Virus record (IMG/VR): IMGVR_UViG_3300028315_000508
Coordinates: 62,001 to 126,000 of that record
Source: a virus
Direction: 5' to 3' (one strand)
DNA: 64,000 nucleotides
The notes beneath the pieces were generated by a model that was not told where the DNA came from, ran no database searches, and saw only the letters and a list, made by a program, of their open reading frames with translations. The position numbers and the translations under genes were made by a program. Positions 6,694-38,747 of the stretch are shown here, piece by piece (the first letter of the stretch is position 1; the number at the start of each line of letters is the position of its first letter).

Positions 6694-8139
6694 TTATCTA
6701 TTTTGGCAATCTGGGCATATCGCAACACCACCAGTATCGATGGCGTAATCGTATGACCAGTCATGCTTGTCGAGGCAATTTTCGCAGGTCTTCGCATCAC
6801 AATTGATGCAGTCGTAGATGTAGTTGCCGTTGTGGAGGTTCATCTGTGCTCCGCAGTACATGCACGAATTCGGATCGCGGAATTCATCTGCGTCCTCAAG
6901 GCCCTCGTACGATTCTCCTAGCCAAGCATCTTCGTAAGCCTGCTCGATAGCCTGTTCGTCACGGCGTTCTAGGCATGATGGGCAGGTGATCTCGAATCCA
7001 GGGCCTTCCCTGGTATCACAAGCTGGGCATATCGGCTGGCCACAATCAGAACATCTGGCATCCTGAGAATCAGCCAGTGGGCTATCTTGCCGCTTGATGA
7101 GGGCAGCACATTCGTCGCAAATTGGATCTCCGCAGATAGCACACTGCTGGTCGAAGATCATACCCCAATCACCATTATCGCCACCACAAATGACACAACT
7201 ATTTGGAGCGAACTCGTCGGCGTCTTCAAGACCTTCGTATGATTCCTTGACATAATGTGGTGGAATCGGCGGGCGGGGATGCCATGGGCTCTCACCAGAG
7301 TGTTCTAGTGTGCCTGGGGTATACTGATCTGCTGGGTAAGGTGAAACGTAATCGTCCGTCATGCATCTGGGGCATGCGATCATCTGGCCAGCATCTGGGT
7401 GCTCTCTACCGTTCTCCATGAACTCAGGCACCCAATCGAAATTGCTGCCGCTTGAGACGCAATAATCACACCAGATACCGCCGCAATTGCAGTCTTCCAG
7501 GTCTTCATGGCTGTAATCGCGACCGCAACCATCGCAGAAGTCAGTCTGGTCGTCGAATTCGTCGGCGTCCTCAAGGCCCTCGTATGATTCAAGACGTGGA
7601 ATGCCGCGAAGATCTTCTGGGTCTACCGGCTGAACTGGCAGATCGACGACTTCATGGTGCATAGCACGGGCTATATCACCTTTGGTGAGTTCGCCAAATT
7701 CGTCATTATCCTCGAGCCCAACATATTCGTCTTCTATCCAATCGGGCCGCCATGTTTCGGCGATTTCAACCATGTCTGGCGTGAATGAGACATCCGGATG
7801 CTTGGACCAGGACATCCCGCCACCAGATTCGTAGTGGCGATATGGGATGTCGACCGAATATGCGTTTTGGTCGTCGTAAGCGATGAGGTAGGCGTGGTCG
7901 TCGCCTTCTTGGCCGCCTTCTGTGTAGTCAACACCGGCGTCGCTCAGGATTTCGCCAATGCCGTTAGCGATTTGGTCACAGATTCCGCCACCACCGACTT
8001 CCGCGTCGCCGTATTCGTCGAATTCTGGGTCCCAAGAGTCATAGATAGCCTGGGCGGCGGCTGCCATCGCCGGTCGTAATTGTTCCAACCGGGCGGCCAA
8101 TGAGTCCTGGACACCCTCAATGATGGTGGCCAGTTTCAT
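6694..8139 (-). CDS. Cys/His/Asp-domain protein with zinc-ribbon modules joined by a repeated linker, 481 aa
   Basis: The N-terminal about 130 residues contain GGGGICDQIA (Cys54), EGDDHAYLIAY (His82) and AYSVDIP (Asp97). That order and spacing suit a papain-like or NlpC-like hydrolase, though I infer the fold from motifs only. After that a near-identical 12-residue linker, (E)SYEGLEDADEF, appears three times plus one degenerate copy (EYVGLEDNDEF), each near the start of a new segment. At least three segments carry CxxC pairs (CDGCGRDY, CVICGGDN, CSDCGQPICPAC, CMYCGAQM) expected to bind zinc. The rest is strongly acidic. It overlaps or abuts its neighbours in a minus-strand operon (6.7-11.2 kb). 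Function unknown. Confidence 0.7.
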   Translation of the reverse strand: MKLATIIEGVQDSLAARLEQLRPAMAAAAQAIYDSWDPEFDEYGDAEVGGGGICDQIANGIGEILSDAGVDYTEGGQEGDDHAYLIAYDDQNAYSVDIPYRHYESGGGMSWSKHPDVSFTPDMVEIAETWRPDWIEDEYVGLEDNDEFGELTKGDIARAMHHEVVDLPVQPVDPEDLRGIPRLESYEGLEDADEFDDQTDFCDGCGRDYSHEDLEDCNCGGIWCDYCVSSGSNFDWVPEFMENGREHPDAGQMIACPRCMTDDYVSPYPADQYTPGTLEHSGESPWHPRPPIPPHYVKESYEGLEDADEFAPNSCVICGGDNGDWGMIFDQQCAICGDPICDECAALIKRQDSPLADSQDARCSDCGQPICPACDTREGPGFEITCPSCLERRDEQAIEQAYEDAWLGESYEGLEDADEFRDPNSCMYCGAQMNLHNGNYIYDCINCDAKTCENCLDKHDWSYDYAIDTGGVAICPDCQNR

Positions 8140-9062
8140 CCAAGGATTACCTTGTTAGATTCGAAAACGTAATGGCCTAGTCGCGGTGAATAGTAAGCAA
8201 TTGATTCTTCAAGGTCGATCTCACCCTCACCCAACTCGATGTCGTTGTCAGGATTCTCAAGCTCTCGCTTGTTCTGTAGTCTTTCCCGTTCGAAATCGGC
8301 GGCACGTTCGATTTGATCGACTACGTCCGGTTCTTCTGGCTCTGGACCAGGACGCTCACCGATGGCTTGCTCATAGTCAAATTGGGCATGACGCATCGGC
8401 CTGTCTTCTTTGTCTCGGATACCAGCCAACGTCTTCTCTCGCTGGAAGTCCTGGAAAGCTTGTCTGGCCGCCTTCATCTCTGGTGTGTCCGCTGGCTCTT
8501 GCGGAGGTGGGCTTGTCTGCAGCTGCGAGACTACTTGATCCAGACGATCTTGCATTTGGCTGAGATCGTCTGGATATTGTGGCTCTGCTTCTTGTTTGCG
8601 TTGGGCTTTGGTCTTGAAGATGCCGCCGAGTTTCTTCTTGAGCCAGTTTTGGGCGGTCTTCATGAACCCATATTTGGGGAACATGACGTCTTTTTGAACG
8701 CCACGGATGAAATTGGCGTTGTAGGTGCGATAGTAGTTGTTGAAGACGTCGGGCAAGACGCGGCGGCCGATCCAATATCGTTGTTTCAGATCACCTCCCT
8801 GCATGATCTGTGGGAGGGCTCTGGCTAAAGCGTCTCGCTGCTTTTCATTGAGATAGTGGAGGTTGATGCCGCCAACGAGATTGTTTCTTGTATTTGGATG
8901 CCGCCAAGCACCGAGCAATAGAATATCCGGAGTCGGGTCATGCTTGAAGTTGGAATAAGCGAATTTCCAACGCGGGCCTTCGCCGTCTTCGAGAATCGGC
9001 ATCGAATCATAGGCGATTCGTGCTTCGATCAGTGTGAAATCTGTGGCATCAGCTAACTTCAT
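8136..9062 (-). CDS. hypothetical structural or assembly protein, 308 aa
   Basis: Residues about 45-80 (ILLLGAWRHPNTRN then LVGGINLHYLN) form a compact conserved-looking core. The middle (about 125-230) is a long charged, probably coiled helix (DLSQMQDRLDQVVSQLQ), and the C-terminal third is very acidic before ending ESNKVILG. This fits a phage assembly or tail-associated protein, but I cannot name a family. It overlaps its neighbours by 4 and 14 bases, so it is in one operon with the zinc-ribbon protein and the 715-residue protein. Confidence 0.65.
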   Translation of the reverse strand: MKLADATDFTLIEARIAYDSMPILEDGEGPRWKFAYSNFKHDPTPDILLLGAWRHPNTRNNLVGGINLHYLNEKQRDALARALPQIMQGGDLKQRYWIGRRVLPDVFNNYYRTYNANFIRGVQKDVMFPKYGFMKTAQNWLKKKLGGIFKTKAQRKQEAEPQYPDDLSQMQDRLDQVVSQLQTSPPPQEPADTPEMKAARQAFQDFQREKTLAGIRDKEDRPMRHAQFDYEQAIGERPGPEPEEPDVVDQIERAADFERERLQNKRELENPDNDIELGEGEIDLEESIAYYSPRLGHYVFESNKVILG

Positions 9063-11196
9063 GGTCGATCTCTAGGGCGTCTACCGGCCGCATCCCTTCG
9101 GCATATTGTTTCTTCTTCTCCGGTTTGCCTTCTTTGTCCTTGTAATGAGGCTTGGCACCCTTGTTCTTCATGGCATTGGCGATTGCATACGGGCATTTCT
9201 TGTCGCCGCTGTAATCATCATCGCATGCTTCCTTGCTGAACTCGTCTGGATGCTTGGAGAGCATCGCGTGGATCGAGCCTTTCCATCCTGGTGGAGACTC
9301 TTCGCTCAAAGTGCGATCAAGCCGTCGAATCATCGCCTCACAAGTAGCTACGATGACGTCGCGATCGATGACACTGAGACTCTCAGTGATAGTAGAACCT
9401 TCGAAAGCCTTCGCCTCATCCATGCCGAGTTGGTAACGATGGATATTGGCAAGCAAAACCAACTTCACCTTACCGTCGCGGAATTGATTCGATACAGCAA
9501 CTTTGGACACCGCGAGATCGCCGCCTTTGACCTTCGCTGTCCAACGCTGAGTCTTGATTCCGAGCTTGACGAACTCGTGCACCTCATTCGTCATTTCTTG
9601 GGCGATCGCTGTCGGCCCCATTGGTTGGTATCCGTCGCGGCTCCAGGCTGAATGCCATAGTCCGCCACTTGGGATCGGCTCGATTTCCGGGTCTTCACCG
9701 ACCTGCCACCAACCACGGGCGTCTCGAGGGATATTCGTCTTTTCTCGCGGTCTACCTCTGCCTGGGTAGTTCGATCCGAGCGGTCCGAGACCACGAATCG
9801 TGTAGCGAAGCTCGTTGGCCGTCATAGGGCCTGTCACTTTTGCTTTGCCGGTATCCTTGTCGACTTTGGCACCGGCACTGATAGCGATTTGGTTGAACTT
9901 GTCACTCGACTTGACGAGGTCACCAAGATTGTGGTTGATGGCGAGATCGAGAATGTAAGTGATTGATTCAGGATCGACCCACGATTCTTCGTGGCCGGTG
10001 CCTTCGATATTACCTGCTGCTGTTCCTTCATTGTCTCCGGCGGCAATGTCCATACTTTGGACGCCGATACCTTGGGTTGCCAGTTCTCGTGCGGCAGAAT
10101 CGAGCGACATTGACTGACCGCGAATTTCGACGGTGTTGTCGTTGATCTTTTCTACGGCCATGTCTGCAACATAGCCAGTTTCGCCGATCGGGATATCCTG
10201 CAAGGCCGTCTTGACTTCGTCCAGATTGCCTTTTGCACGGTCGAGAGTCGAGATTGCTTGGCCGAGGCCGGTGGATGCACCTCGAATCGGTGTCTCTGCA
10301 TCTTCGATTTCTTCGCCGAATTGACGCAGTTGGCTTTGAGCTGCTTCGATTCTTCCTTCATCTCCGTTCTCGAGTGCATCAGCGTATTGATTCACAAGAG
10401 CGAAGTATTTCGGAGAGAAAGCTCCGAATGGGTTTTGCGGGTTCTTGTCGTGGTGGCGTTCCTTCTGGTACTTGCCTTGTACGACTTGGGCGGCTTGCCG
10501 AACTTGTTTGGGGTCCTTCATCTTAAGGACACCAGGGACGCCGATGGCTGTGTGTTCTGTCCAACCTTCACCTGCGTCTGATGGCCGTCGTTTGCGGAAG
10601 TTGCCGGATGGGTCTGTAAAGAATTGGCTTCTTTCACCACCGGCCATCCCGCCTGCCGTGGTGCCACCGGTGCCGTGCTCCATAGCACTTTGAATCGTCC
10701 GGATGACGTAGGAGATGAAAGGCCCGCGTCTTTCGTCGTAGCCGGGATGCATCATCTGTGTCAAAGGGATGAAGCCGTTGCTGTAGAGATCTGCGATGAA
10801 TTCGCGATCTTTCTCTCGCCCGGCATGTCTTGCGACTTTCTTTGCCAAGCGAAACAGAGGGGCACCGCCTTTGTTGCCGTAGCCGGGACTTCGTGGATTT
10901 TCTGAGGCTCTGAATAGAAGTTGTGGATCACCGGCGATAGCGTATACGACTTCTTCCGGAGTCCATTTGGGAGCACGGCCGCCGCGTTGCCAACCTGGAA
11001 CCGGTTCGCCAGGACTTGACCATTCGGCGTCGTTCCATACTGGGTCATCGGTCAATGGGCCGATGGTGTGGAACAGAGCGTCTTCTGCTTTTTGGCGATC
11101 GTACTCAGGGCTTCTTGGGTCTTTCCACGACGCATTGTCGCCCTCATTTTCGAGGATGGCAAATCGACGGTTGAGCTTCGTAAGTATTGTAGGCAT
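9049..11196 (-). CDS. large protein with a sigma-factor-region-2-like segment, 715 aa
   Basis: Residues about 131-175 read EFIADLYSNGFIPLTQ then YDERRGPFISYVIRTIQSAM. This matches the hydrophobic/charged pattern of sigma70-family region 2 (DLxQEGxxGLxxA..FDxxxGxxFxTYAxxxIRxAI). The remaining about 540 residues match nothing I know and include a Cys-containing C-terminal segment (ACDDDYSGDKKCPYAIANAM) and a Lys-rich tail. There is no obvious region 4 HTH. It is first in a minus-strand operon; CAAAGATA lies 33 bases upstream of the start. It could be a phage transcription factor, or a virion protein in which the resemblance is accidental. Confidence 0.6.
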   Translation of the reverse strand: MPTILTKLNRRFAILENEGDNASWKDPRSPEYDRQKAEDALFHTIGPLTDDPVWNDAEWSSPGEPVPGWQRGGRAPKWTPEEVVYAIAGDPQLLFRASENPRSPGYGNKGGAPLFRLAKKVARHAGREKDREFIADLYSNGFIPLTQMMHPGYDERRGPFISYVIRTIQSAMEHGTGGTTAGGMAGGERSQFFTDPSGNFRKRRPSDAGEGWTEHTAIGVPGVLKMKDPKQVRQAAQVVQGKYQKERHHDKNPQNPFGAFSPKYFALVNQYADALENGDEGRIEAAQSQLRQFGEEIEDAETPIRGASTGLGQAISTLDRAKGNLDEVKTALQDIPIGETGYVADMAVEKINDNTVEIRGQSMSLDSAARELATQGIGVQSMDIAAGDNEGTAAGNIEGTGHEESWVDPESITYILDLAINHNLGDLVKSSDKFNQIAISAGAKVDKDTGKAKVTGPMTANELRYTIRGLGPLGSNYPGRGRPREKTNIPRDARGWWQVGEDPEIEPIPSGGLWHSAWSRDGYQPMGPTAIAQEMTNEVHEFVKLGIKTQRWTAKVKGGDLAVSKVAVSNQFRDGKVKLVLLANIHRYQLGMDEAKAFEGSTITESLSVIDRDVIVATCEAMIRRLDRTLSEESPPGWKGSIHAMLSKHPDEFSKEACDDDYSGDKKCPYAIANAMKNKGAKPHYKDKEGKPEKKKQYAEGMRPVDALEIDHEVS

Positions 11197-20538: not shown

Positions 20539-21453
20539 ATGCCACAGACTATCTCTCCTCAGCTCGTTCGTTCGATCGCAGAACAAATGGGGCTGGTGCA
20601 GGCCGAGGCGAAGTTCGCCACACAGTATCTACAATATTACTACGAGCCTGACAAGAACAAGGTTCTGACCGAAACCGATATCGCGTCCCACACGCGAAGC
20701 TTCCAAAAGATGTTTGGGCTTACCGCCAATGGTAAGCTCGATGGTAAGACACTCACAGCGATGGCATACCCACGATGTGGGTGCCCTGACTTCATGATGA
20801 TCAGCAATGATCAGCAGGCAGTCAAGTGGGGACCGAAGAACATCACGTACTTTGTCGAAAAGTACGTCAACGGCATCAACAAGTCCGATCAGGACGACAT
20901 TCTCGATCTAGCATTCGAGCAATGGGAAGAGCACATCGAGCTTGATATTCGCCGCACGAACACCAAGAATTCGGCGAATTTGATCCTTTCGACAGGCCAA
21001 GGGCGAGCAGACAACTTCGATGGCCCATCAGGGACTTTGGCATGGGCATACTTGCCGCCAAACAACAATTTCCAGGGCCAGTTGTTGATGCGTTTCGACC
21101 TAGACGAAACGTGGATCGTCAACGCTCGCGATAGGGGCATCCTGCTCCTAAATGTTGCGTGCCACGAATTCGGGCACATGCTTGGTCTCGAGCATTCGAG
21201 TATCCAGAGAGCATTGATGGCACCGTATTACTCGGCCGGTATCACCAAGCCGCAGTTCAACGATGACATCACCAGAATCCAGGCTCTGTACGGCAAGAAG
21301 ACGACACCGCCTTCACCACCGCCACCGCCTCCGCCTGGACCTACTCCTCCTCCGCCTCCGAGTGGCGGGAATCGCGTCGAGATTACGGGGATCGATAGCC
21401 TCGATCAGGTGAAGATCAATGGCAAGCCAGTGGCCGATTTCACACTGATTTAG
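20539..21453 (+). CDS. matrixin-type zinc metalloprotease with peptidoglycan-binding-like domain and cysteine switch, 304 aa
   Basis: Residues about 5-75 match a PG_binding_1 domain, as at the N-terminus of vertebrate MMP propeptides. Residues 78-84 read PRCGCPD, close to the MMP cysteine switch PRCGxPD whose Cys blocks the catalytic zinc. The catalytic domain has HEFGHMLGLEH (His209, Glu210, His213, His219) and a Met-turn at ALMAPYY (Met227), the metzincin hallmark. After about residue 250 comes a Pro-rich linker and a short C-terminal module. No signal peptide is visible, so export may depend on lysis or packaging in the virion. A role in degrading host surface protein or the envelope is plausible. 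Confidence 0.9.
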   Translation: MPQTISPQLVRSIAEQMGLVQAEAKFATQYLQYYYEPDKNKVLTETDIASHTRSFQKMFGLTANGKLDGKTLTAMAYPRCGCPDFMMISNDQQAVKWGPKNITYFVEKYVNGINKSDQDDILDLAFEQWEEHIELDIRRTNTKNSANLILSTGQGRADNFDGPSGTLAWAYLPPNNNFQGQLLMRFDLDETWIVNARDRGILLLNVACHEFGHMLGLEHSSIQRALMAPYYSAGITKPQFNDDITRIQALYGKKTTPPSPPPPPPPGPTPPPPPSGGNRVEITGIDSLDQVKINGKPVADFTLI

Positions 21454-22306: not shown

Positions 22307-24064
22307 ATTCCTACTATAACACCAGCCAGTGTCCCGACAAAAGCCCCTGGTACTCTATTCAGTGCATTCACTGGTGGGGATACCACGCTGAATATTCGGT
22401 GGCTCGTCGCTACTGATCCTGTTTTCTTCGAGACTCTGAACAGGCCGACAGCCGACATCACCGTTCGGCAACTGGTGCTGGCGAAAGCAATCGACAGCAT
22501 CCAATTGAGCCTTGGGCATGCGGCACTGTACCCATACCTAATACAGCCGCGAGTATCGTCCGGGACTCAAGAAGTCGATGTTCCGCTCCGTTGGATCTGG
22601 GACATCCACGCCTCCCTACCGAAGAAATGGGAAAACCTGCGTCTCGCCAAAATCAAGAGAATTTCCGGCGAAAACAGCACCACCAGTGGCTACGACGGTT
22701 GGCTCCGCTGCATCTTCACAGCCAACGTCGAAAACTCGGCTACCGAAGTATCGGTCTTCTACGCCGATTACCAAATCGACAGCAACCTCACCTACCAACC
22801 AGTGCGAATGGGCGTCGTCGACTCGCTCGAAGAAGCGGTCTCACTGGACCCCGGCGAAGTCGAAACAGTCGCTGGGTTCCTGATCTTTCGAACGCTCGAC
22901 GATACACTGCAGGAAGTCCAGGACTTCTACGACCTCCTTGTACCTCCAACAGACACCACCGATTCTGACGCTGACGGATTTTATGACAACCCAGCGATCT
23001 ACGAGATCGTTGATACTGTTGCCGGAGGGGTCGGTATCAGTGACGACTTCGCCACCGTTGCCCTCTCGCACGGAACGGGGCTCTTCACTGACAGTGCCTG
23101 GAACGCGATCCCGCAGCTCGACAGCGATATCCAATCTTGGATTGTTTCGTTCAACTATCCGTTCGACTCCCTTGCGAACAGGACGTCCATCGACAATATC
23201 ACAATCCCGAATGGATTGTTCAAAGAATTCGATATTGTCGCTCCAGCAGGTGACCAGCCGACTGGAGACACCAGCGGCCTGACGTACCCAGTGTGGCTGT
23301 CAAGGATTGAACGAATCGGGACCGGCTCGCAACAGCTTAGGCTGTATTTCTCGACGTTCAACGTCACGGACGCCGAATCCGGAGGAAATCCGAGCACCGC
23401 AGCAATCGAATTTGCGACTCTCGATTTGATCCGGTCTGCAACTCAAGGCGAAATCGTCGATATTGTCCCGATCGATAATCTGTTGCTCGAAACCGGCAGC
23501 GATGCTGACGATTTCTATCAACACTTTGGCCGTGGCCATGTGGTGCTGTCAAGCTTGTGGGATAAGACGACATCCGAGGTCGACGACTTCTTTGATGCGT
23601 TCGACACGATCGTCGATGTGCCTCCTGACACCACTTTCTCGCAATCTTCGACGCGTCTCAGCTCATTTGGGATCAGTCGAGTACCGAAGTACGTGCCGAC
23701 AATCGGTCAGTCTCAAGCCCTCAAGGGAAGCACGTCTCGCAGGACTGCTCCGATTCACCCGAGTTACGACAACCGATACGTTACCGAACTCGACCAGGGT
23801 GTCGGCAATCAAGTGGACCTTGAGGCACAAGTTGGCATCACACCGAATACTGCCATCGACAGGTTCGGCTTCCAGGGTGCATTGGTCCACAAAGTGGTCA
23901 AACTCATCGTGGACGCAACAGCTGTTGGGAACGATCCAACGTTCTACGACGACGAAATCTTGCCGCGTCTACGGATTCTCTTCGGCCGCGATCCTGCCTT
24001 TGGTGACTTCTGGTACAACGGTACCCGCTTGATGTTCCACAACGGGGACACCTGGCAAGGTTAG
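22307..24064 (+). CDS. virion-like protein, 585 aa, apparently starting at ATT
   Basis: The frame is open from 22304. GTG at 22475 would be the first ordinary start but has no ribosome site. ATT at 22307 has GGAGG 8 bases upstream and gives a convincing N-terminus (M)PTITPASVPTKAPG, followed by LNIRWLVATDPVFFETLNRP, which continues smoothly into RQLVLAKAIDSIQLSLGH. The protein is beta-rich with KRISGENS and TEVSVFYADYQIDS segments that read like a conserved tail or capsid-associated protein. I infer a structural role. AUU starts are rare (infC is the classic bacterial case), so a sequencing error changing ATG is also possible. Confidence 0.65.
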   Translation: MPTITPASVPTKAPGTLFSAFTGGDTTLNIRWLVATDPVFFETLNRPTADITVRQLVLAKAIDSIQLSLGHAALYPYLIQPRVSSGTQEVDVPLRWIWDIHASLPKKWENLRLAKIKRISGENSTTSGYDGWLRCIFTANVENSATEVSVFYADYQIDSNLTYQPVRMGVVDSLEEAVSLDPGEVETVAGFLIFRTLDDTLQEVQDFYDLLVPPTDTTDSDADGFYDNPAIYEIVDTVAGGVGISDDFATVALSHGTGLFTDSAWNAIPQLDSDIQSWIVSFNYPFDSLANRTSIDNITIPNGLFKEFDIVAPAGDQPTGDTSGLTYPVWLSRIERIGTGSQQLRLYFSTFNVTDAESGGNPSTAAIEFATLDLIRSATQGEIVDIVPIDNLLLETGSDADDFYQHFGRGHVVLSSLWDKTTSEVDDFFDAFDTIVDVPPDTTFSQSSTRLSSFGISRVPKYVPTIGQSQALKGSTSRRTAPIHPSYDNRYVTELDQGVGNQVDLEAQVGITPNTAIDRFGFQGALVHKVVKLIVDATAVGNDPTFYDDEILPRLRILFGRDPAFGDFWYNGTRLMFHNGDTWQG

Positions 24065-29162: not shown

Positions 29163-29469
29163 TCTGAAATATCTCCCATTCTGGACCCTCTTCGAGTACA
29201 TCGGCGACACTCCGCCGCATCCTTTCATACCCGTCTATGTGTTGGAAGAGTATGTCAGGAACGCTCGAGGCCCGCAAGGACCTGTCTCTTACAACGCAGT
29301 CAACATCGCGATCTACAAGCCGGATTCTGAACTCGTAGCGACCGACATCCCGACAGAAATGTTAATCAGTCCGGAAGAGTTGGTTGATTGGGCCGACCGC
29401 ATCGCTGGTTGGTTTAAGGACCACGCGGTCGAGCTTGTAACTACGAGGCCAGAAAATGAAGAAGGTTGA
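29149..29469 (+). CDS. hypothetical protein, 106 aa
   Basis: The start at 29149 overlaps the regulator's end by 14 bases; a slightly longer start at 29137 is also open. Compact aromatic/Pro-rich protein (YLPFWTLFEYIGDTPPHPF) with an acidic helix at the C-terminus. Overlaps the adenosine-deaminase-like gene by 14 bases. Unrecognised. Confidence 0.65.
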   Translation: MTSPNLKYLPFWTLFEYIGDTPPHPFIPVYVLEEYVRNARGPQGPVSYNAVNIAIYKPDSELVATDIPTEMLISPEELVDWADRIAGWFKDHAVELVTTRPENEEG

Positions 29470-30415
29470 TACCCACCGGCACCTAGGAGGATCGATTTCG
29501 ATTGACTGGGTGTGGCACACCGTCCGCCAGCTCGGACTCAAGCATCTGGCGGAAAGTCTAACGGACGTCACCGAAGCTATGACGTTCAACCACGACGAAC
29601 CACGTGAATTTCATCGCTTCTTGGACAAGTTCAGAATTCTGGACGATATCCCATGGACCGAAGATCTAATCGACGGCTCCATCAAATCCGTATGCGACGG
29701 TCTCGAAAGGGAGAATATCGATTATTGCTGGCTCGACTTCTCCATCAACAAGTACATGGATGGACCCATGACTTGGCACAAACACGAAGCGATCGACTTT
29801 ATTCACAGCTCATTTGAGACGCATCGCCCCGGTGGGGTTGGGCTGGTGTTGTCTCTCAAGTACGAAGCCCATCGAGCTAGCCAGCGACAATATGCCGATC
29901 TCATCCACGACCCAAACGTCGCCGATAAGCTCGTCGGGATCGATCTAGTTGGTGATGAGGGATTCTTCGACTTCCGATTTTACGAGCCAATCTTCCGCGA
30001 ATGGAATGCTGCCGGAAAGATGACGAGGGCTCATGTCGCTGAGTCATGTGAAGCCGACAACGGCCTACATGCGATTGTCCACCTGAAAGTGACAAATATA
30101 GCACATGGGCTGAAAATGGCGGCGTCGTCAGAAATGATGGCGATCGCAAAAGATCACGGCGTAACCTTCGATCTTGGAATTGGCAGCAATTACCTCACCG
30201 GTGTCTGGAAAAGCCAGACTTATCACCCAGTCATGACTCTGCTCGAATCAGGGCAGAAAGTCACGCTTGGGACAGACGACCCCGTTCAATGCTCTACTAC
30301 GCTCGACATCGAATTTCGTAATGTGCAACAGAACTACGGCGTCTCTGAAGAAGAATGTGATCGGATGAGGAGAACTGCCGTGGAGAATTGCCAGAAGTAT
30401 GTTCGAGCACCTTAA
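29456..30415 (+). CDS. adenosine deaminase-like amidohydrolase, 319 aa
   Basis: TIM-barrel amidohydrolase motifs of the ADA family appear in order: DTHRHLGGSIS (first metal His pair, residues 5-12), HVAES in place of HxGE (acid Glu retained), IAHG for the third metal His, GSNYL and YHPV, then GTDDPVQCSTTLDIEF (metal Asp). ADA enzymes convert (deoxy)adenosine to (deoxy)inosine; relatives act on adenine or methylthioadenosine. The N-terminal His-x-His and TDDP are intact, so activity is likely. In a phage the target may be host nucleotides, modified bases or a signalling nucleoside. Overlaps both neighbours. Confidence 0.85.
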   Translation: MKKVDTHRHLGGSISIDWVWHTVRQLGLKHLAESLTDVTEAMTFNHDEPREFHRFLDKFRILDDIPWTEDLIDGSIKSVCDGLERENIDYCWLDFSINKYMDGPMTWHKHEAIDFIHSSFETHRPGGVGLVLSLKYEAHRASQRQYADLIHDPNVADKLVGIDLVGDEGFFDFRFYEPIFREWNAAGKMTRAHVAESCEADNGLHAIVHLKVTNIAHGLKMAASSEMMAIAKDHGVTFDLGIGSNYLTGVWKSQTYHPVMTLLESGQKVTLGTDDPVQCSTTLDIEFRNVQQNYGVSEEECDRMRRTAVENCQKYVRAP

Positions 30416-30962
30416 GCAGTTCAAGAAAATCCTTGTTTCCGGCCCACAGCGATCTGGTACGAGAATCTGCTCCGTAATGGTGTCAGAGGACACCGGAATC
30501 GAGCGAATCGATGAAGTACGAGCACCGCATATCTTCGTGCCTGGGCAGGAGCTGGCTTATGTGAAGTCACTTGTGCAGGAACGAGAAGAATTCGTTCTTC
30601 ACTGCCCACCGTTCAGCAGGTGGCTCCATGAAGTGTCAGGAGTAGCCGTCGTTCTGATGCGAAGAGCCATCGCGGACATCATAGAGTCGGAACGGCGAAT
30701 TAACTGGCGTAAGGGGCGTCAAGAACTGGAATATACCAAGTATGGATACTGGCGATGGAAGAAGCAGCCCGGCCTCACCAGGACGTTCAAACCAATCTCA
30801 CAAATCAAGTACGAGTATTGGGATAACGTACAAAAGGCACAAATAGAACACGCCTTTGAAGTGAGCTATGACGACTTGATGGGCCATCCACTATGGGTTC
30901 CGAAGGAAGAACGAAAGAACTTCACATGGGGGCAAACCTCGCAGAACCCGCAACTACTGTGA
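30399..30962 (+). CDS. sulfotransferase-like protein, 187 aa
   Basis: P-loop-like ILVSGPQRSGTRI at residues 11-23 matches the PAPS 5'-phosphosulfate loop of sulfotransferases. VVLMRRAIADIIES near residue 84 resembles the 3'-phosphate-binding segment, and FEVSYDDLMGHP matches the late conserved YDDL motif. It is short, perhaps a minimal or trimmed member. First of the sulfotransferase-type genes in the glycan island; overlaps the next one by 37 bases. Confidence 0.7.
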   Translation: MFEHLKQFKKILVSGPQRSGTRICSVMVSEDTGIERIDEVRAPHIFVPGQELAYVKSLVQEREEFVLHCPPFSRWLHEVSGVAVVLMRRAIADIIESERRINWRKGRQELEYTKYGYWRWKKQPGLTRTFKPISQIKYEYWDNVQKAQIEHAFEVSYDDLMGHPLWVPKEERKNFTWGQTSQNPQLL

Positions 30963-31663
30963 ATTTCGTCATCCTCGGCCGCATCAGAACCGGCACTTCA
31001 CAGCTCTGCTCGGCACTGGATTCACATAGCCAGATCCGTTGCAAACTAGAGCTGCTCAAGCACGGCAAATTCAACGTCGGCGTCGACAAAGTCGAATCGT
31101 ATCTGACGGAGAAGATCTATACCCCACATACCGAGAAGCCGGTCCGTGGTTTCAAGATCATGTACCACCAAATGTGGGGCCGCGAGACGCCAGAGTTCTA
31201 CTGGATCTGTAATGTCCTGCAGCAATTCAAAACGAAAGTGATCCACGTCAAACGGCGGAACTTTCTCGATCACTTTCTATCGATCATTCTGGCCAGAAAC
31301 TGCGATATCTGGAATGCCTGGACCGATCGTAGAATCGACAAGCACTTCGTGATGCTCGGGGAGGACACTCTTGATCGCTACAATCAGCCGGTGCATTTAG
31401 ACGTCAAATTGATGCTCAGGAAGCTGAAGAGCCAACAAAAATGGGAGCGATCAATCGACGCGATGTTCCCTGATTGTTTTGTCGCTCAATATGGAGAGAC
31501 GGACTTTGGTCTCATTCAGGAATGGCTCGGTGTAAAGCCAGAAGATATCAAGCCGTCAACGGTCAGAATGAGAACCAGGCCCAAGAGAGAACTGATTTCT
31601 AATTATGATGAGGTCGTCGTCGCACTGCGAGAAATCGGGCGAGATTGGATGCTCGAAGATTAG
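30926..31663 (+). CDS. sulfotransferase-like protein, 245 aa
   Basis: The start at 30926 (MGANLAEPATTVNFVILG) is preferred; 30893 is also open. NFVILGRIRTGTSQLCSAL is the PAPS loop. TKVIHVKRRNFLDHFLS corresponds to the 3'-phosphate segment. The C-terminal VRMRTRPKRELISNYDEV and RDWMLED are almost the same as in the 237-residue protein at 33460-34173, so the two are paralogues. They probably sulfate a surface or virion glycan. The Golgi-type membrane anchor of eukaryotic members is absent. Confidence 0.75.
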   Translation: MGANLAEPATTVNFVILGRIRTGTSQLCSALDSHSQIRCKLELLKHGKFNVGVDKVESYLTEKIYTPHTEKPVRGFKIMYHQMWGRETPEFYWICNVLQQFKTKVIHVKRRNFLDHFLSIILARNCDIWNAWTDRRIDKHFVMLGEDTLDRYNQPVHLDVKLMLRKLKSQQKWERSIDAMFPDCFVAQYGETDFGLIQEWLGVKPEDIKPSTVRMRTRPKRELISNYDEVVVALREIGRDWMLED

Positions 31664-31977
31664 TCGTCTTGTGCTTCGTGCTTGGCGATATGTCCCTCGA
31701 GAGCCTGTAGCTGGATGAGGATTGGCTCAGCTCTGTCGAGGTAGATCGGTCCCCAATTGGAACGGATGTGGTCGCGGCGTTCTTCGATTCCCATCGTGTC
31801 CATCTGGTGGCACAGCAGTCGGACGTCGTTCGTTTTGAGGACGTTGGTTGATAGGAGTAATGTGTCGAGTTTGTTCCGCAAGTCTCGCCATTGGCTGGAC
31901 ATTTCCACCCGTTGGCGGTTTTCCAATGCGGAGGCCACTTTCTCGACGCCAGTTTCGATATCGACTTGCTTTGCCAT
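31660..31977 (-). CDS. hypothetical coiled-coil protein, 105 aa
   Basis: Start at 31977 overlaps the stop of the gene before it (TAATG); a longer frame was discarded. Helical and charged (VEKVASALENRQRVEM, LRNKLDTLLLSTNVL). One of two small minus-strand genes that interrupt the plus-strand glycan run. Confidence 0.6.
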   Translation of the reverse strand: MAKQVDIETGVEKVASALENRQRVEMSSQWRDLRNKLDTLLLSTNVLKTNDVRLLCHQMDTMGIEERRDHIRSNWGPIYLDRAEPILIQLQALEGHIAKHEAQDD

Positions 31978-32351
31978 TAGACGCGTTGCCTTACAACTTG
32001 AACATCCTTGGCACCGCCCTTGAGAACAATTTCGCCTGTTTCGGCGACTTCGCATGTTTCGCGGACGACTTTGAGAAACTCTTCCTCAAAGACGATATCG
32101 GCACCGATCTTGCCATGACGCATTGGAATCACGAAATGAATCCCACCCTCCGCCGGATTGTAGGTAGCATTCAATTCTTGGACCATCAGCTGAATGTTGG
32201 CTGGGGAGAGATCGCCGACTTCGATGAAGTGAACCGTACGTAGAGTAGCACCCGGTCTCACAGTCGGAGGAGGGGCAACTTTGGGTTTCTTGTCACTGAG
32301 GACAACGGTTTGTTTCTTCTGCGGCTGCTTCTTAATTGGCTGAGATTGCAT
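31977..32351 (-). CDS. hypothetical protein, 124 aa
   Basis: Basic/Pro-rich N-terminus (QPIKKQPQKKQTVV) then an alpha/beta domain (LRTVHFIEVGDLSPANIQLMV, GIHFVIPMRHGKIGADIVF). Preceded by GGTGGAGG, with a minus-strand GTATATACGG further upstream. Unrecognised. Probably an operon with the following small gene. Confidence 0.65.
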   Translation of the reverse strand: MQSQPIKKQPQKKQTVVLSDKKPKVAPPPTVRPGATLRTVHFIEVGDLSPANIQLMVQELNATYNPAEGGIHFVIPMRHGKIGADIVFEEEFLKVVRETCEVAETGEIVLKGGAKDVQVVRQRV

Positions 32352-32408
32352 TGGAGTCCTCCACCCCGTATATACGCAAGGCGTTCACGAACAAGACAGG
32401 AGCGAAAA

Positions 32409-32720
32409 GTGAAATCGATTCTTATTACCTTTGCCGATGATGTCGAGCGAGACCAATTCCTGGAGCAAGTCCGGACCGTCAAGGCAGACGTGGTGACCAA
32501 GGCACTTGGCACCATCAAGCTCGACCCGCCGATCAAGGAGGATCACGAACGACAATGTGCCTTGTTCATCTCCGGTCAGAAGATGATGGAAGGTAGTCTG
32601 ACGGAACTAAACCGTCGATTTGACCAAGAAGTCGGCAGCCACTCAGGTTCCGTCATCATCAAAGAACTGCGTGGTGGAGAATGGCACGAGATCAGGGCAC
32701 GCCGCCTGCAGAGGACGTAG
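32409..32720 (+). CDS. hypothetical protein with GTG start, 103 aa
   Basis: The GTG at 32409 follows ACAGGAGCGAA at good spacing; a longer reading into the divergent region is unlikely. KSILITFADDVERDQFLEQV begins a small alpha/beta fold. Ends inside the methyltransferase gene. Unrecognised. Confidence 0.65.
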   Translation: MKSILITFADDVERDQFLEQVRTVKADVVTKALGTIKLDPPIKEDHERQCALFISGQKMMEGSLTELNRRFDQEVGSHSGSVIIKELRGGEWHEIRARRLQRT

Positions 32721-33460
32721 ACAAGTTCAGAGACGCGGTACAGCGTCGGATCTCGTACCGTCTCGAGCATGACGAAACTCCTGTCGGAGGTCTGAATCCG
32801 TATCACAGATACTACACAGAAAGCGGCATTGCAGCCTTCCGCCTGATACTCGACCATCTGCATCTCACGAAGACCGACAAGGTTCTGGAAGTGGGATGCG
32901 GAACCGGTCGAGTATCGGTTCCTTTCATCAAGCACCTCGACAAAAATTACCACGCTTTCGACAACAATCTCTGCTTCATTGAGTATTGCCGAACGCTCGG
33001 TGGTAATTTTACATATTTAGATGTGTTTCATGACGATTGGAACCCAGCGGGAACGATAGACCCGCTACAGGTAGAATTCCCGTACCGAAGCAGACAATTC
33101 TCAGCTGTCTTCTCGATGGTGGTGTTCAACCATTTTAGATATACCTGGTTCGAACACTATTGTTCGGAGATCTCACGGGTCCTGACAAAGGGCGGAAAAT
33201 TCTTCACCACCTTGATCGTCGCTAAAGAACCGCAAGAAGAGAAACAGCCACCATTCCAATTCAAACACCGCACTGATACCGAATGGTATGACTACCGGGA
33301 CGCCCCGTTGTATAATATTGCGTTTCCCGAGATCTTGATTCGGCGGGCTTTGATCAAGCACGGTCTGATGATTGCCGAGCCCATCAGATATGGGAGTTGG
33401 AATAAATCGCCATTGGCTTTGTCAGGGTTCGATGTGGTGATGGCACACAAAAGGAAGTAA
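32681..33460 (+). CDS. SAM-dependent methyltransferase, 259 aa
   Basis: DKVLEVGCGTGRVSVPFIKH (about residues 66-85) is a textbook class I motif I, and YHAFDNNLCFIEYC carries the acidic end of strand 2. FSAVFSMVVFNHFRY corresponds to motif IV, and GGKFFTTLIVAKEP to the post-motif. It should methylate a small molecule or sugar acceptor in the glycan pathway. Overlaps the previous and next genes (TAATG). Confidence 0.85.
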   Translation: MARDQGTPPAEDVDKFRDAVQRRISYRLEHDETPVGGLNPYHRYYTESGIAAFRLILDHLHLTKTDKVLEVGCGTGRVSVPFIKHLDKNYHAFDNNLCFIEYCRTLGGNFTYLDVFHDDWNPAGTIDPLQVEFPYRSRQFSAVFSMVVFNHFRYTWFEHYCSEISRVLTKGGKFFTTLIVAKEPQEEKQPPFQFKHRTDTEWYDYRDAPLYNIAFPEILIRRALIKHGLMIAEPIRYGSWNKSPLALSGFDVVMAHKRK

Positions 33461-34173
33461 TGCTCTATCATCGGCCCATACATTTTGTTATTCTGTCCTG
33501 GGGCAGGTGCGGCACTGAATGGCTGGTCCAAAGACTCAATTCTCATCCGGAAGTGCGGTGCCTATCGGAGTTCTTCGGTCTAGTCAAGAGCGAAAATGGC
33601 TGGATACCACCGGTCCTTGAACCTATGCTTCCACTATTTTACCAGACGATGGCGACACACCAGGTCCATGGTGTCAAAATCCTGTATACCCAATTGCAAC
33701 GAGAAGGTGAAGACCTGGATCTGTTTCTAAAGAGCGTGTTTGGCCGTGGTTCGGTCAATGAGAGGCTTGTGATCCATCTTCTACGCCGCAACTATCTTGA
33801 CCTACTCGTGTCACAAACACTGGCACACACGACTCGTATAATGCACTTCACTAAAGATCAGACAAAGTACCGAGAAGTTTACAATTCCAAGATCGTCGTC
33901 GATCTGAATTACTTCAGGCATTTCGTTGATCGCTATGAAAGGCTACAAGAATGGGCAGAAAAGATGGTTCCGAGAACCAGACGCTTCTGGTACGAAGATC
34001 TACAACGGGACGGATTGCAGAGCGTCTTGGATTTCTTGAATCTTCCACAAGCCGACTTATCCGATAGATATTGCAAGATGCGTACAAGACCAAAGTCGGA
34101 ACTGATATCCAACTTCGATCAGCTGGTTGGTGCACTTAGCGGTACGCAGTACGAATGGATGCTGGACGGATAA
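33460..34173 (+). CDS. sulfotransferase-like protein, 237 aa
   Basis: IHFVILSWGRCGTEWLVQRL is the PAPS loop with Arg-Cys-Gly-Thr, and LVIHLLRRNYLDLLVS is the 3'-phosphate segment. RRFWYEDLQRDG matches the YEDL motif. The C-terminus (KMRTRPKSELISNFD, YEWMLDG) pairs it with the protein at 30926-31663. The duplication with an intervening methyltransferase suggests different acceptor positions on one glycan. Confidence 0.75.
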   Translation: MLYHRPIHFVILSWGRCGTEWLVQRLNSHPEVRCLSEFFGLVKSENGWIPPVLEPMLPLFYQTMATHQVHGVKILYTQLQREGEDLDLFLKSVFGRGSVNERLVIHLLRRNYLDLLVSQTLAHTTRIMHFTKDQTKYREVYNSKIVVDLNYFRHFVDRYERLQEWAEKMVPRTRRFWYEDLQRDGLQSVLDFLNLPQADLSDRYCKMRTRPKSELISNFDQLVGALSGTQYEWMLDG

Positions 34174-34781
34174 TGTTAGCACACATGCACAAACTGGCAA
34201 TCAAAGGGCGAAGAGGGTTTCCCAAGCTCCTGAAAGAAATCGGTGCAAAAAGAATTGCCGAAATTGGGGTGGCCGATGGTGAAAACATTCAAACCCTGTG
34301 TGAATGCGACCCAGATATCATTGTCGCTATCGATGATTGGGCACAACCATCAAGAAGCACCGAGTTCGTCCATCGAACTGGCATCGTGAATGGATTTCAT
34401 CCTGTTGTTAAGATGGCACTGCAAAACAGGGCCATACTTCCAATCAGATTAGAATCTGAAATAGCGGTCAAGATCTTTGACGACGGTTTCTTTGACTTTG
34501 TCTACATTGACGCCAACCATACCTACAAATACGTGAAACGCGACATTGGTATCTGGTGGGACAAGGTTGCAGAGAATGGCATGCTCGCAGGGCATGACTA
34601 CAATCTATGCGAATTACGTGGCCCACAGGTCTCTGGCGTCAAAAGAGCCGTTCACGAATTTGCATCAGAACGTGGCCTCTTGGTAACTATAGTCGAGGAA
34701 GAATCTCCTTATTCATTTGATAGTTGGGTTCTGGTAAAAAGCGAATTCAACTACATGCTTGATCCATGGAAAAGACCATGA
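34173..34781 (+). CDS. class I methyltransferase (Methyltransf_24-like), 202 aa
   Basis: Start in a TAATG overlap. AKRIAEIGVADGENIQTLCE is a motif I variant, IIVAIDDWAQ the strand-2 acid, FFDFVYIDANHTYKYVKRD the family's typical motif IV (IDAxHxYexvkxD), and GMLAGHDY the following turn. These enzymes commonly modify sugars or macrolides. In the glycan island it likely O-methylates a sugar. Confidence 0.82.
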   Translation: MLAHMHKLAIKGRRGFPKLLKEIGAKRIAEIGVADGENIQTLCECDPDIIVAIDDWAQPSRSTEFVHRTGIVNGFHPVVKMALQNRAILPIRLESEIAVKIFDDGFFDFVYIDANHTYKYVKRDIGIWWDKVAENGMLAGHDYNLCELRGPQVSGVKRAVHEFASERGLLVTIVEEESPYSFDSWVLVKSEFNYMLDPWKRP

Positions 34782-35581
34782 AAGAAATCCTTGAATTCGC
34801 CTTGCAAAACCCAGACGCCGTCGAACATGTCGATATCAAGCTCAAAGCTGGAGCTATTCCTAAGTTGTTCGAATCTCAGCTTTGGCCTCGGGCTGTCAAT
34901 CCATCATTGATCATCGACGAGAGCGACGAAAAACAGGTGGCGACTCGTGCCAAATCGATCGTTCGAACATTCTTGCCGGATCTCTCTGGCAAGAAATTCT
35001 TGGACTTTGGCTCCGGTACGTCTAAAATAGCCGATCATGTCGAAAACGCGGCCGTCGCGGTGTCGTACGATGTGGCTGAATCGCTAGGAGTGCTTACCGA
35101 CTGGAATGTAGTGATCGAGCACAAGTATGACGTCATCCTGATGTACGATGTCATCGACCACATGACCAGCGATGGAAAGCTGGTTGGATGGAACGGGGTC
35201 ATCGAAATCCTCAAACAACTGGTAGAAGATGCCCTCGCTACTGACGGTGTGATCTACTGCCGCTTGCACCCTTGGACATCCAGACACGGAACTCACAACT
35301 ATCTTCTCGACAACAAAGCATACGGGCATTTTGTAAACGGACAGAATATCGGCATGCCTACCATCGTCACAAAAGAACCGGTCAACCAGTACAAAGACAT
35401 TTTCGCCAAATCCGGTTTGAACATGACGAAAACAAACCTTTTCAGACAACCAATTCCGCCAATATTCAATGATCCAGTATTCGACAGCTGGTCGAGAGAG
35501 ATATTCACCTGGCGAAACTCGAAGATCTTCCGCGAAGTGATGAATATCAATTTTGTCGATTGTGTTTTAGAGCGATGCTGA
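34778..35581 (+). CDS. methyltransferase-like protein, 267 aa
   Basis: Start in an ATGA overlap; an upstream ATG at 34766 is also open. GKKFLDFGSGTSKIADHV resembles motif I, VAVSYDVAE the strand-2 acid, and YDVILMYDVIDHM motif IV. The C-terminal about 90 residues (LHPWTSRHGTHNY, PVFDSWSREIFTWR) are an added segment. Another sugar or lipid methyltransferase is likely; the identity of the acceptor is not visible. Confidence 0.72.
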   Translation: MKEILEFALQNPDAVEHVDIKLKAGAIPKLFESQLWPRAVNPSLIIDESDEKQVATRAKSIVRTFLPDLSGKKFLDFGSGTSKIADHVENAAVAVSYDVAESLGVLTDWNVVIEHKYDVILMYDVIDHMTSDGKLVGWNGVIEILKQLVEDALATDGVIYCRLHPWTSRHGTHNYLLDNKAYGHFVNGQNIGMPTIVTKEPVNQYKDIFAKSGLNMTKTNLFRQPIPPIFNDPVFDSWSREIFTWRNSKIFREVMNINFVDCVLERC

Positions 35582-36333
35582 CCCATGTACCGGCACCTAG
35601 ATGGCACTCGGATGGCCAACTGCACGTCGCCACGGTCTATTTTGGCGATTCTCCATTAAACTCGCTGTGGCTTCGTCTACAGCAAGAGTTTCTCAAACGC
35701 ACCACGACCAACTATCGCTTTAGCGTATATCTGAATAATTGTGATCAGTCATTATTCAAAGACGTGGACATTCTGGGTGTAGCACCAAAAGGACTACCAT
35801 CAAGTCCGTCCCAGAACCACCTATGCTGTCTTCGAGAGCTAGTCAAGCTTATTGATTGCAGCAAGGATCTTTTGATACTGGATAGTGACTGCTTCCCGAT
35901 CCTCGAAGGATGGCGACCAATCTTGCAAACCGCCATGGCGGACAGAGGATTTCAAGCGGCTGCCCCGGTCAGAGTGGAGAACCTGGATCTATTTCCACAC
36001 CCTTGTGCGATGTTCGTTACTAGCCAAGGTAGGGAAGATTTCGAAATAATCTCTTCGAATTCTGACAATTTATTGGGCGTTAGGCGACAAGAACCGACAT
36101 GCTCCGTTCCGGTTTTCCCTTTGATCAGGACTAACAGGATTAATATTCACCCGATCGGAGCAGCAATCTATTACGACATGTTCTATCATCACGGAGCCGG
36201 ATCGAGACCGGCGATCTTCCACAACATCGATCAAGACCCATACTTTACCGGTAACTATAGCTGGGAGTACTCGATAGATCGCTTGAATCAAGACCCAACA
36301 GGATTCGTCAATTGGTTAATGCGAAAAGAATAA
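35575..36333 (+). CDS. glycosyltransferase-like protein (GT-A), 252 aa
   Basis: Overlaps the preceding gene's end. LHVATVYFGDSPLNSLWLR starts a GT-A-like domain; DLLILDSDCFPIL near residue 105 is a DxD-type metal site. Later ANIxHxG-type residues (YYDMFYHHGAG) fit a sugar-acceptor loop. The clan could not be named. It is flanked by methyltransferases. Confidence 0.65.
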   Translation: MLTHVPAPRWHSDGQLHVATVYFGDSPLNSLWLRLQQEFLKRTTTNYRFSVYLNNCDQSLFKDVDILGVAPKGLPSSPSQNHLCCLRELVKLIDCSKDLLILDSDCFPILEGWRPILQTAMADRGFQAAAPVRVENLDLFPHPCAMFVTSQGREDFEIISSNSDNLLGVRRQEPTCSVPVFPLIRTNRINIHPIGAAIYYDMFYHHGAGSRPAIFHNIDQDPYFTGNYSWEYSIDRLNQDPTGFVNWLMRKE

Positions 36334-37007
36334 ACGCCGAAATCCAGAAATTGCGTTCTGGAGTCGATTTCTCCGGCATCGTGCTGGAAAGAATCATTGA
36401 CTGGACACCAACCGAATCGGATACCAGTTGGAGACCATTCCAACGACCGAAACTGTTGCGACTTGTGTCGAAGTTCGTGACAGTTAACGGACTTTGGCTC
36501 GAGTTCGGTGTCGCAGCCGGATTTAGTATCAAAACGATAGCACAGTGCTGTGACCATGCATATGGCTTTGACACGTTTACCGGTCTACCGGAAGAATGGA
36601 AGAAAGGAGAAGCCACATTGCCGGTTGGGCAGTTCAGCCAAAATGGACAACTGCCAGCTGTCCCGTCAAACGTCACTTTGATTAAGGGCCTTTTCGAACA
36701 GACTCTGCCGCCATTCTTGAAGGCACATTCGGAACCGATAGCTTTCGTCCACATCGATTCTGACATCTACTCATCGTGTAAGTGCATTCTGCAGGCTTTG
36801 AAAGATCGGTTTGTCCCTGGAACAATCATCTGCTTTGATGAATTTACCGGCTACCAGAACTTCGCAGAACATGAAATACGTGCTTGGATTGAGACTATGG
36901 ACGACTCGGAGTATCAATGGGTTGGATACTTGGGACAAACTGCGATAGTCTCAATAGGCGATTCTGAGCTGGTCACAGCTATGATGAGTCGATGTCTGGT
37001 GCCGTGA
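36312..37007 (+). CDS. TylF/MycF-family O-methyltransferase, 231 aa
   Basis: LWLEFGVAAGFSIKTIAQC is the family's motif I (EFGVxxGxSI), YGFDTFTGLPEEW the following acid and loop, FVHIDSDIYSSCKCIL the motif IV with metal Asp residues, and CFDEFTGY the second metal motif. MycF/TylF enzymes O-methylate deoxysugars. This points to a methylated sugar in the phage-encoded glycan. A TTG start overlaps the preceding gene. Confidence 0.85.
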   Translation: MVNAKRINAEIQKLRSGVDFSGIVLERIIDWTPTESDTSWRPFQRPKLLRLVSKFVTVNGLWLEFGVAAGFSIKTIAQCCDHAYGFDTFTGLPEEWKKGEATLPVGQFSQNGQLPAVPSNVTLIKGLFEQTLPPFLKAHSEPIAFVHIDSDIYSSCKCILQALKDRFVPGTIICFDEFTGYQNFAEHEIRAWIETMDDSEYQWVGYLGQTAIVSIGDSELVTAMMSRCLVP

Positions 37008-37966
37008 TGTTGTTTCACTCGCACGTCACCACTCGGATCTTGATCCAAAATGATGGTTCCGACATCTATGGATCAGGTATGCAGATCCAATTGTTGATGG
37101 ACGGATTGCGAGAGCTAGGACTCAGTGTCGATTACAGCAATGACCCAGATATCGATCTTCGTCCATACAGCGTCGTGCATTTGAACCATTTGAGGCAGGA
37201 ATGGACTGCTAAGCAATATCTGAATTGCCTGGCACAAAAGACACCATACACTGTCAAATGCATCTGGGTCAGCGGCAGAGCCCATTCACAAAAAGATCTA
37301 CCGACAATTCGAGATATCGCTAAAAACGCTTTTGCTCTGACTTATGAAGCCAAATGCAATGAGCAGAGACTAATCAACCTCACTGGTAATAAGTCTAAAT
37401 TGTTCTACATGCTACCCGCAATCCACCCAACTTTTCGAAATGAAAAACCGTTGGAAGAAAGAAAGCTGGTGCACATTAACGGCAGGTATAGTAGGATCAA
37501 AGGGCATCTGGAAGTCATCAAAGCCTGCAAAGAGCTTCAAGTCCCTGTTGTGACCGCTGGCTGGATCACTGACGAAGCGTACTATCAAACTTGCAGAAAT
37601 GAAGAGTACGGAGACGTCAAGTCACGGCTGGACCATGAGGCCCTGAATTCGATATTGAACGATACGAGGGTCTATGTCTGTGCGAGCCAATACGAATTGG
37701 CGGCAACCAGTGTCGGCGAGGCTTTGGAATGTGGATGTCTTTGCCTTGCGTCGACCGGGTATGCTGCCGGTCCTGATTTCAATTTGCCAACATACGAGTA
37801 TGGCAACCAAAAAGACCTCGTTGCCAAGCTCAAGACCATCTATGAATCAGATCGATCTCCAACCGTACGCATGTGGTCCGTGCGTCGTTTAGCTGTAGAG
37901 TATTTGCGGATTTGGGTTAAAGCTGCCCCTGAGTTGAATTGGGCATTGCAAGATGTTGATGGATAA
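37007..37966 (+). CDS. glycosyltransferase family 4-like (GT-B), 319 aa
   Basis: The start overlaps TGA (TGATG); 36992 is an alternative. RILIQNDGSDIYGSGMQIQ opens the N-terminal Rossmann lobe. In the C-terminal lobe LVHINGRYSRIKGHLEVIKAC is the donor-binding strand/helix and SQYELAATSVGEALECGCLCL is the family EX7E motif. It transfers a sugar from a nucleotide donor. Coupled to its neighbours. Confidence 0.85.
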   Translation: MLFHSHVTTRILIQNDGSDIYGSGMQIQLLMDGLRELGLSVDYSNDPDIDLRPYSVVHLNHLRQEWTAKQYLNCLAQKTPYTVKCIWVSGRAHSQKDLPTIRDIAKNAFALTYEAKCNEQRLINLTGNKSKLFYMLPAIHPTFRNEKPLEERKLVHINGRYSRIKGHLEVIKACKELQVPVVTAGWITDEAYYQTCRNEEYGDVKSRLDHEALNSILNDTRVYVCASQYELAATSVGEALECGCLCLASTGYAAGPDFNLPTYEYGNQKDLVAKLKTIYESDRSPTVRMWSVRRLAVEYLRIWVKAAPELNWALQDVDG

Positions 37967-38747
37967 TCCGACAATTGGATTGATGATGATCCGTGATGAG
38001 CAAGACATGCTTCGTGAGGCTCTAGACAATCACACGAAGTTTTGTGATCTCATATTCGTTCTCGACGGGACAGAAGGCCCAGATGGAGAGTTATCAGAAT
38101 CAATTTGTAGGTCATACTCGCAGGTGGTTGGATACTGGAGAGACAGAGACACCGGCTATGACAAAATCGTTTGTGGATCTCGTCAGTTTTTGCTGGAAAG
38201 AGCCAGAGAAACAGTTGGACTGAACCATTGGTGTGTGATCTTGCATGGAGATGAGATCTGGGGTACAAGCCCACTCGATTTGATGACACCTACAAATGAG
38301 CCATTGGCTTATCGAGTGCGGTTTTATCACTTCTTCCCGCACGTGTCACAACGAGAATCGTGGGATTTTGGCGAGAAGACAATCGAAGAATGCAGTAAAT
38401 GGTACATGCTGCCAGCCACGCTTGAGAAGCGTGTTTTCTTCGATATCGGGCTTGATTATAACCCAAATCTGCATTTGAATCCTTTCCCGATTGATGTTGA
38501 CGTCCGGCAATCTGAGCTTGTCGTAAAATCGTACAATTACAGAACACCAGAGCAAGCACACAAACGGGCCGTCAGTAGAAAAGAAACTGGATGGCAGACC
38601 AACCATTACGCTCATCTGTTGGCTGGGCCAGACGAATTCTTCGTTGCCTCTTTGGCCCAAGACGGCATGAAGTGGAGTGGTTGGTCCAAGCCGGGTGAAG
38701 GTGAGGCGGTAAACACTGACGATGTGCCGCTACCTATGATGGTGTAA
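37953..38747 (+). CDS. glycosyltransferase family 2-like protein, 264 aa
   Basis: IGLMMIRDEQDMLREALDNH is the usual start of family-2/92-like enzymes, CDLIFVLDGTEGPDG the second strand, and WCVILHGDEIWGT a DxE metal motif near residue 98. The C-terminal half is aromatic. The last gene of the plus-strand half of the glycan island; ends convergently with a sulfotransferase gene (18-base overlap). Confidence 0.75.
   Translation: MLMDNPTIGLMMIRDEQDMLREALDNHTKFCDLIFVLDGTEGPDGELSESICRSYSQVVGYWRDRDTGYDKIVCGSRQFLLERARETVGLNHWCVILHGDEIWGTSPLDLMTPTNEPLAYRVRFYHFFPHVSQRESWDFGEKTIEECSKWYMLPATLEKRVFFDIGLDYNPNLHLNPFPIDVDVRQSELVVKSYNYRTPEQAHKRAVSRKETGWQTNHYAHLLAGPDEFFVASLAQDGMKWSGWSKPGEGEAVNTDDVPLPMMV

Follow-up and report, generated by a model that had tools for sequence, protein, structure and literature searches.

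The window, that is, the whole stretch of 64,000 nucleotides analysed here, is part of a viral record of 146,091 bases. Positions 6694 to 8139 were found to carry an open frame on the minus strand, encoding a protein of 481 aa; the plus strand shows many stops there. This protein contains 107 acidic and 25 basic residues as well as 29 cysteines, and the whole protein gave no tblastn match among 50,697 records of isolated phages. It comprises a short leader, an N-terminal domain with a conserved Cys/His/Asp set, and zinc-finger modules led by an acidic peptide, SYEGLEDADEF, which we refer to as the tag. The features of the locus are listed below.

6694 to 8139, minus strand: gene of 481 aa, consisting of leader, Cys/His/Asp domain, degenerate tag and three tag/zinc-finger modules.
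8116 to 8139, minus strand: leader MKLATIIE (aa 1-8), capsid-targeting-like, with (I/L)xE at its end.
7750 to 8076, minus strand: N-terminal domain (aa 22-130) with Cys54, His82 and Asp97; possible cysteine hydrolase.
7756 to 7764, minus strand: IAE (aa 126-128), strict (I/L)xE at the end of the N-terminal domain; putative cleavage site.
7696 to 7728, minus strand: degenerate tag EYVGLEDNDEF (aa 138-148).
7555 to 7587, minus strand: tag 1, SYEGLEDADEF (aa 185-195); the RLE in front is no consensus site.
7363 to 7536, minus strand: zinc finger 1 (aa 202-259), C-2-C-11-C-1-C-4-C-2-C-28-C-2-C.
7243 to 7251, minus strand: VKE (aa 297-299), abutting tag 2; relaxed site, putatively cleaved.
7210 to 7242, minus strand: tag 2, SYEGLEDADEF (aa 300-310).
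6973 to 7197, minus strand: zinc finger 2 (aa 315-389), extended, with 12 Cys.
6913 to 6921, minus strand: LGE (aa 407-409), abutting tag 3; strict site, putatively cleaved.
6880 to 6912, minus strand: tag 3, SYEGLEDADEF (aa 410-420).
6706 to 6864, minus strand: zinc finger 3 (aa 426-478), C-2-C-14-C-2-C-4-C-2-C-19-C-2-C, FYVE-like.
8136 to 9062, minus strand: overlapping upstream gene, 308 aa, starting with MKLADATDFTLIE followed by A; leader recognised by inspection.
9049 to 11196, minus strand: next overlapping gene, 715 aa, starting with MPTILTKLNRRFAILE followed by N; leader recognised by inspection.

The 308-aa and 715-aa proteins are probably co-transcribed cargo; by eye, the latter (9049-11196) also contains a stretch resembling sigma-factor region 2. 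Elsewhere in the window, positions 20539-21453 encode a matrixin-type metalloprotease (Peptidase_M10, E 4e-34) with a peptidoglycan-binding domain, and positions 29456-42825 hold a host-like gene run in which sulfotransferases, methyltransferases, glycosyltransferases and an adenosine-deaminase-like protein were recognised by eye. Two adjacent proteins at 52446-56824 are built of many repeats of about 14 residues (THTTDALLxAExSR), the longer one with 42-bp tandem repeats in its DNA. In the region 57700-61700, the GC skew is strong (up to 0.20) and convincing genes are almost absent. Neither an RNA family nor a tRNA was detected in the window.

The initial annotation had described a linker repeated within one gene, and this is indeed what the 481-aa protein exhibits: SYEGLEDADEF occurs three times exactly and EYVGLEDNDEF once as a degenerate copy. 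As the best other unrelated six-frame match within the window reaches only 7/11 identities, three exact 11-mers in one frame are not due to chance. At the DNA level, the exact copies differ at 3-7 of 33 positions, all synonymously. Across all 11 copies found in the phage record, pS is 0.98 (saturated) and pN is 0.057; the peptide is therefore under selection, and the copies do not stem from a recent DNA duplication. These copies are distributed over six genes, so that the tag is not private to the 481-aa gene: four are found in this protein, three in a protein of 1312 aa, and four are single N-terminal tags following MKLREIYILED, MKIRSIIES, MKLRSIIE and ...IYRLASLITED. Single-module versions are also present in the same genome.

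When 2.9 million viral contigs were scanned with a degenerate DNA pattern, about ten further related metagenomic contigs emerged, with dozens of tag copies, some of them internal, others N-terminal and placed directly after leaders of the type MKLxxIxE-S, KxIxxLAxxITEDPDE or ...KxIxxMITEDPDE. Applied to 84,980 bacterial and archaeal species genomes, the scan returned one match, in an unrelated protein, which we judged to be due to chance. What follows the tag varies: zinc fingers, the recurrent payload, make up about half, and the rest is unrelated. Taken together, these observations show that the tag is a selected, genome-wide and payload-independent peptide. In one contig (IMGVR_UViG_3300037586_004576, locus L021, 7189-9538), two adjacent genes are identical over about 100 bp, up to a point just behind the tag beyond which they differ; the tag region has thus served as a place of module exchange at least once. 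Upstream of one of these two genes lie a truncated reading, MKLKTITNEYEGLL followed by a stop, and a second leader, NPNVIALLITEDPDI.

With regard to the leaders, MKLATIIE has the form of a short N-terminal leader ending in (L/I)-x-E. Leaders of this type were found on other genes of the phage as well, with 7 pattern matches against 0.22 expected from shuffles, one of the seven (MKIQLSEKYG) probably not being a leader. Several leader-bearing proteins, including the 481-aa one, lack a tag immediately behind the leader, and the tag is therefore not needed for leader function. A scan for leaders followed by S-D/Y without the tag yielded two unrelated proteins.

The genome also encodes a large terminase and a portal, together with a head protease of the T4 gp21 family (S77; PF03420, 67.6 bits against a cut-off of 27; phrog_207, E 3.8e-38) and a gp23 capsid protein (PF07068, 269 bits). 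The protease gene lies outside the window, at 22826-23575 of record C1. The capsid and the protease of one relative, G001, are 85% and 72% identical to those of the phage, respectively, and the capsid pro-regions of both keep (I/L)xE motifs (TLAE, PITE and VILE in one; HLTE, PLME and VILE in the other). Matches to phrog_207 or PF03420 were confined to these two genomes, the other tagged contigs being mostly fragments. In T4, gp21 cleaves after L/I-x-E, and short N-terminal targeting propeptides bring internal proteins into the head (PMC9026906); a giant-phage homologue of the protease favours Ser after the cut (PMC10052503). The phage is T4-like and its host probably a planctomycete, as hinted at by a gene at 49017-49874 whose product contains a cytochrome c domain of planctomycetes (PSCyt1, above the Pfam cut-off). 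In a further relative (G002, IMGVR_UViG_3300027987_000382; locus L041, 4256-19224), the gp23-like capsid gene lies in at least three pieces over 15 kb, separated by unrelated genes, which points to large introns, scrambling or misassembly.

The linkers had initially been proposed to be protease sites or docking peptides. Across the related phages, the first part of this proposal gains from the gp21-family protease encoded and from the residues upstream of most tags, where [ILV]xE resembles the motif of the T4 gp21 protease. Internal tags have this triplet shortly before them far more often than expected: of 25 cases, 18 show it no more than 8 residues upstream, whereas the same proteins would lead one to expect 2.05 (P 7e-16, a nominal value because the cases are non-redundant but partly homologous), and the strict form [IL]xE is found in 12 of 25, against 1.24 expected. 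Two orthologous polyproteins with 54% identity retain both internal sites (VSE/IEE and LTE/IAE) despite changed surroundings. In the G002 and L011 orthologues, every site is of the [ILV]xE form. Roughly one in three positive internal sites has valine at P3, and none of the N-terminal leaders does, so the internal sites may be weak, slower, or partly decayed or drifted. The motifs could also be relics of fused leader-bearing genes.

Within the 481-aa protein itself, the motif accompanies only some of the tags. Only six [ILV]xE triplets are present, ending at residues 8, 63, 128, 239, 299 and 409; four of them are located at the leader or at a module boundary, the remaining two lying within a predicted helix (63) and within module 1 (239). 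Two of the four tags have the motif directly in front, in strict form for tag 3 and in relaxed form for tag 2. In contrast, the degenerate tag is directly preceded by WIED, with a strict IAE 10 residues before it, and tag 1 by RLE, which is why this protein fits the cleavage pattern less well than its relatives do.

The segments behind the three tags exhibit complete ligand sets of 8, 12 and 8 cysteines. The CxxC sites noticed earlier in most segments are thus parts of complete cross-brace-type fingers, with 8 Cys in general and 12 in one case, and it is this 8-Cys cross-brace spacing, also seen in FYVE domains (PF01363), which rules out the original designation as zinc ribbons. A profile of ten modules picked up FYVE domains among PDB chains (2.3e-6 at best), with scores under the Pfam cut-off, and a structural model of modest confidence (pLDDT 70) placed FYVE-like folds at the top of a fold search (E 0.04-0.15). 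The phosphoinositide (lipid-binding) motif R(R/K)HHCR of FYVE domains is absent from every module sequence, so we refer to these fingers as FYVE-like rather than FYVE. No published phage FYVE-like finger was found in the literature searched, most subscription papers being outside its reach.

Given these observations, we propose, with a probability of roughly 0.55 and on the basis of sequence, that the gene encodes a head-targeted modular cargo, a polyprotein cut next to its tags by the gp21-like protease of the phage. We infer packaging, cleavage and ejection to proceed as follows. MKLATIIE, like a T4 capsid-targeting sequence, would take the precursor into the prohead core, where the protease would then remove the leader after IxE. 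What remains would be a small polyprotein in which the Cys/His/Asp domain, perhaps an enzyme, is followed by three FYVE-like modules, every one of them with the acidic peptide (E)SYEGLEDADEF at its front. The same protease may cut at [ILV]xE before the internal tags, and the modules so freed, with the tag at their start, would be ejected into the host along with the DNA. For the 481-aa protein, the strict sites predict cuts after residues 8, 128 and 409 and the relaxed site one after 299, tag 1 appearing uncut. As a flexible acidic peptide, the tag probably exposes the site, docks to the core or the protease, or both, and may double as a junction for module exchange, as was seen once.

Several other readings of the same evidence were weighed. 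The tag may act as a docking peptide for the scaffold core, the capsid lining or another phage protein, with its repeats providing avidity and the protein staying whole save for the leader. We consider this rather unlikely, albeit a serious candidate: the peptide is better conserved than the motif upstream of it, and the internal copies in the 481-aa and 1312-aa proteins often lack a strict site, whereas the proximity of [ILV]xE to most internal copies, and the persistence of the pattern at orthologous sites while the surroundings change, speak against it. That the tag serves chiefly as a recombination junction or as a linker for module swapping, with little function of its own, is improbable, since the ratio of synonymous to non-synonymous change indicates selection on the peptide and not on the DNA; the stretch shared by the neighbouring genes of L021 and the shuffling of payloads and modules between genes are what such a reading would explain. 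An equally poor prospect, or slightly poorer, is that the 481-aa protein is no head cargo but a zinc-finger regulator produced in the infection and acting in the cytoplasm. Modules of this kind occur in many regulators, and packaging of the protein is deduced indirectly; nevertheless, its leader type is common to several phage genes and fits the T4-like logic of capsid targeting, and the two co-oriented overlapping genes likewise bear (I/L)xE leaders.

The least probable reading, which we regard as very doubtful, is the earlier suggestion that the N-terminal domain is a cysteine protease cutting its own polyprotein at the linkers. Cys54, His82 and Asp97 do exist in this domain as had been claimed, and they are kept in all of its relatives (three distant sequences; His82 of the phage relative was assigned by inspection, the aligner shifting it by two). 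The loss of the cysteine in relatives, which had been named as an argument against the suggestion, was thus not observed. In an AF2 model built from two sequences (pLDDT 76), Cys54 begins a helix, and successive strands carry His82 and Asp97. The domain shares a conserved Cys/His/Asp set with papain-like cysteine proteases but not a detectable similarity of fold to known members: Foldseek returned no match at E<=0.001 in the PDB or BFVD, known proteases included. Relatives are rare; those found are encoded on a Rhizobium plasmid (E 2e-9) and in another phage (E 6e-14), and they have no linkers of the SYEGLEDADEF type; conversely, a search that had no positive control found no match to the domain among eleven related tag-bearing records. 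For these two reasons, the domain is more likely to be a payload enzyme than the linker cutter, a role for which we found no support. The Rhizobium relative adjoins a gene that resembles a macro domain by eye. The genes around the phage relative have a different leader in common, MWYK(I/L)(A/S). In contig IMGVR_UViG_3300042940_003066 (locus L058, 3914-8017), consecutive unrelated genes start with MWYK(I/L)(A/S), apparently another leader family, and one of them carries the Cys/His/Asp domain behind a GNAT-looking domain.

Cleavage of a head-targeted polyprotein by the gp21-like protease can also be put in a wider form, namely that this T4-like lineage builds true head polyproteins of several modules, each led by a tag and cut in the prohead between [ILV]xE and a tag starting with S/D, with a single leader sufficing to bring several ejection proteins into the capsid and the tag marking the point of module exchange. 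We advance this generalisation tentatively and place it somewhat short of even odds.

The nearest known kinds are the capsid-targeted internal proteins of T4 and the polyvalent proteins. The former (IPI-III and Alt; PMC9026906) also carry a short leader ending in (L/I)xE, which is cleaved by gp21 in T4, and form a small and diverse cargo set encoded together with an S77 protease and a gp23 capsid. Unlike the protein described here, they are not described in PMC9026906 as tandem modules with a repeated acidic peptide or zinc fingers. In the literature searched, again with most subscription papers outside reach, no head polyprotein with repeated peptides or a tandem tagged architecture was found. 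Polyvalent proteins of phages and conjugative elements are likewise multidomain; their packaging and injection have been predicted and their processing proposed, and they have been likened to viral polyproteins (Iyer et al. 2017, PMC5512222). The 481-aa protein differs from them in that Pfam and PHROGs searches revealed no zincin peptidase, ART or other typical polyvalent domain, and in that its cutter would be the head protease, acting in trans at repeated peptides. In phiKZ and SPN3US, head and inner-body proteins are processed by gp175/gp245 (PMC9026906, PMC10052503) behind a short motif whose last residue is Glu, with Ser favoured at P1' in SPN3US and several cuts in one propeptide, which resembles what is proposed for the tag sites; however, N-terminal propeptides are removed there, whereas the cuts in the present phage would free several cargo products. 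If this reading is correct, T4 capsid targeting would reach beyond single cargo proteins to cargo arranged in tandem, released by a protease and equipped with a reusable module peptide, FYVE-like zinc fingers would join the known phage head cargo, and a sequence signature would be at hand for finding unknown injected proteins in uncultivated phages.
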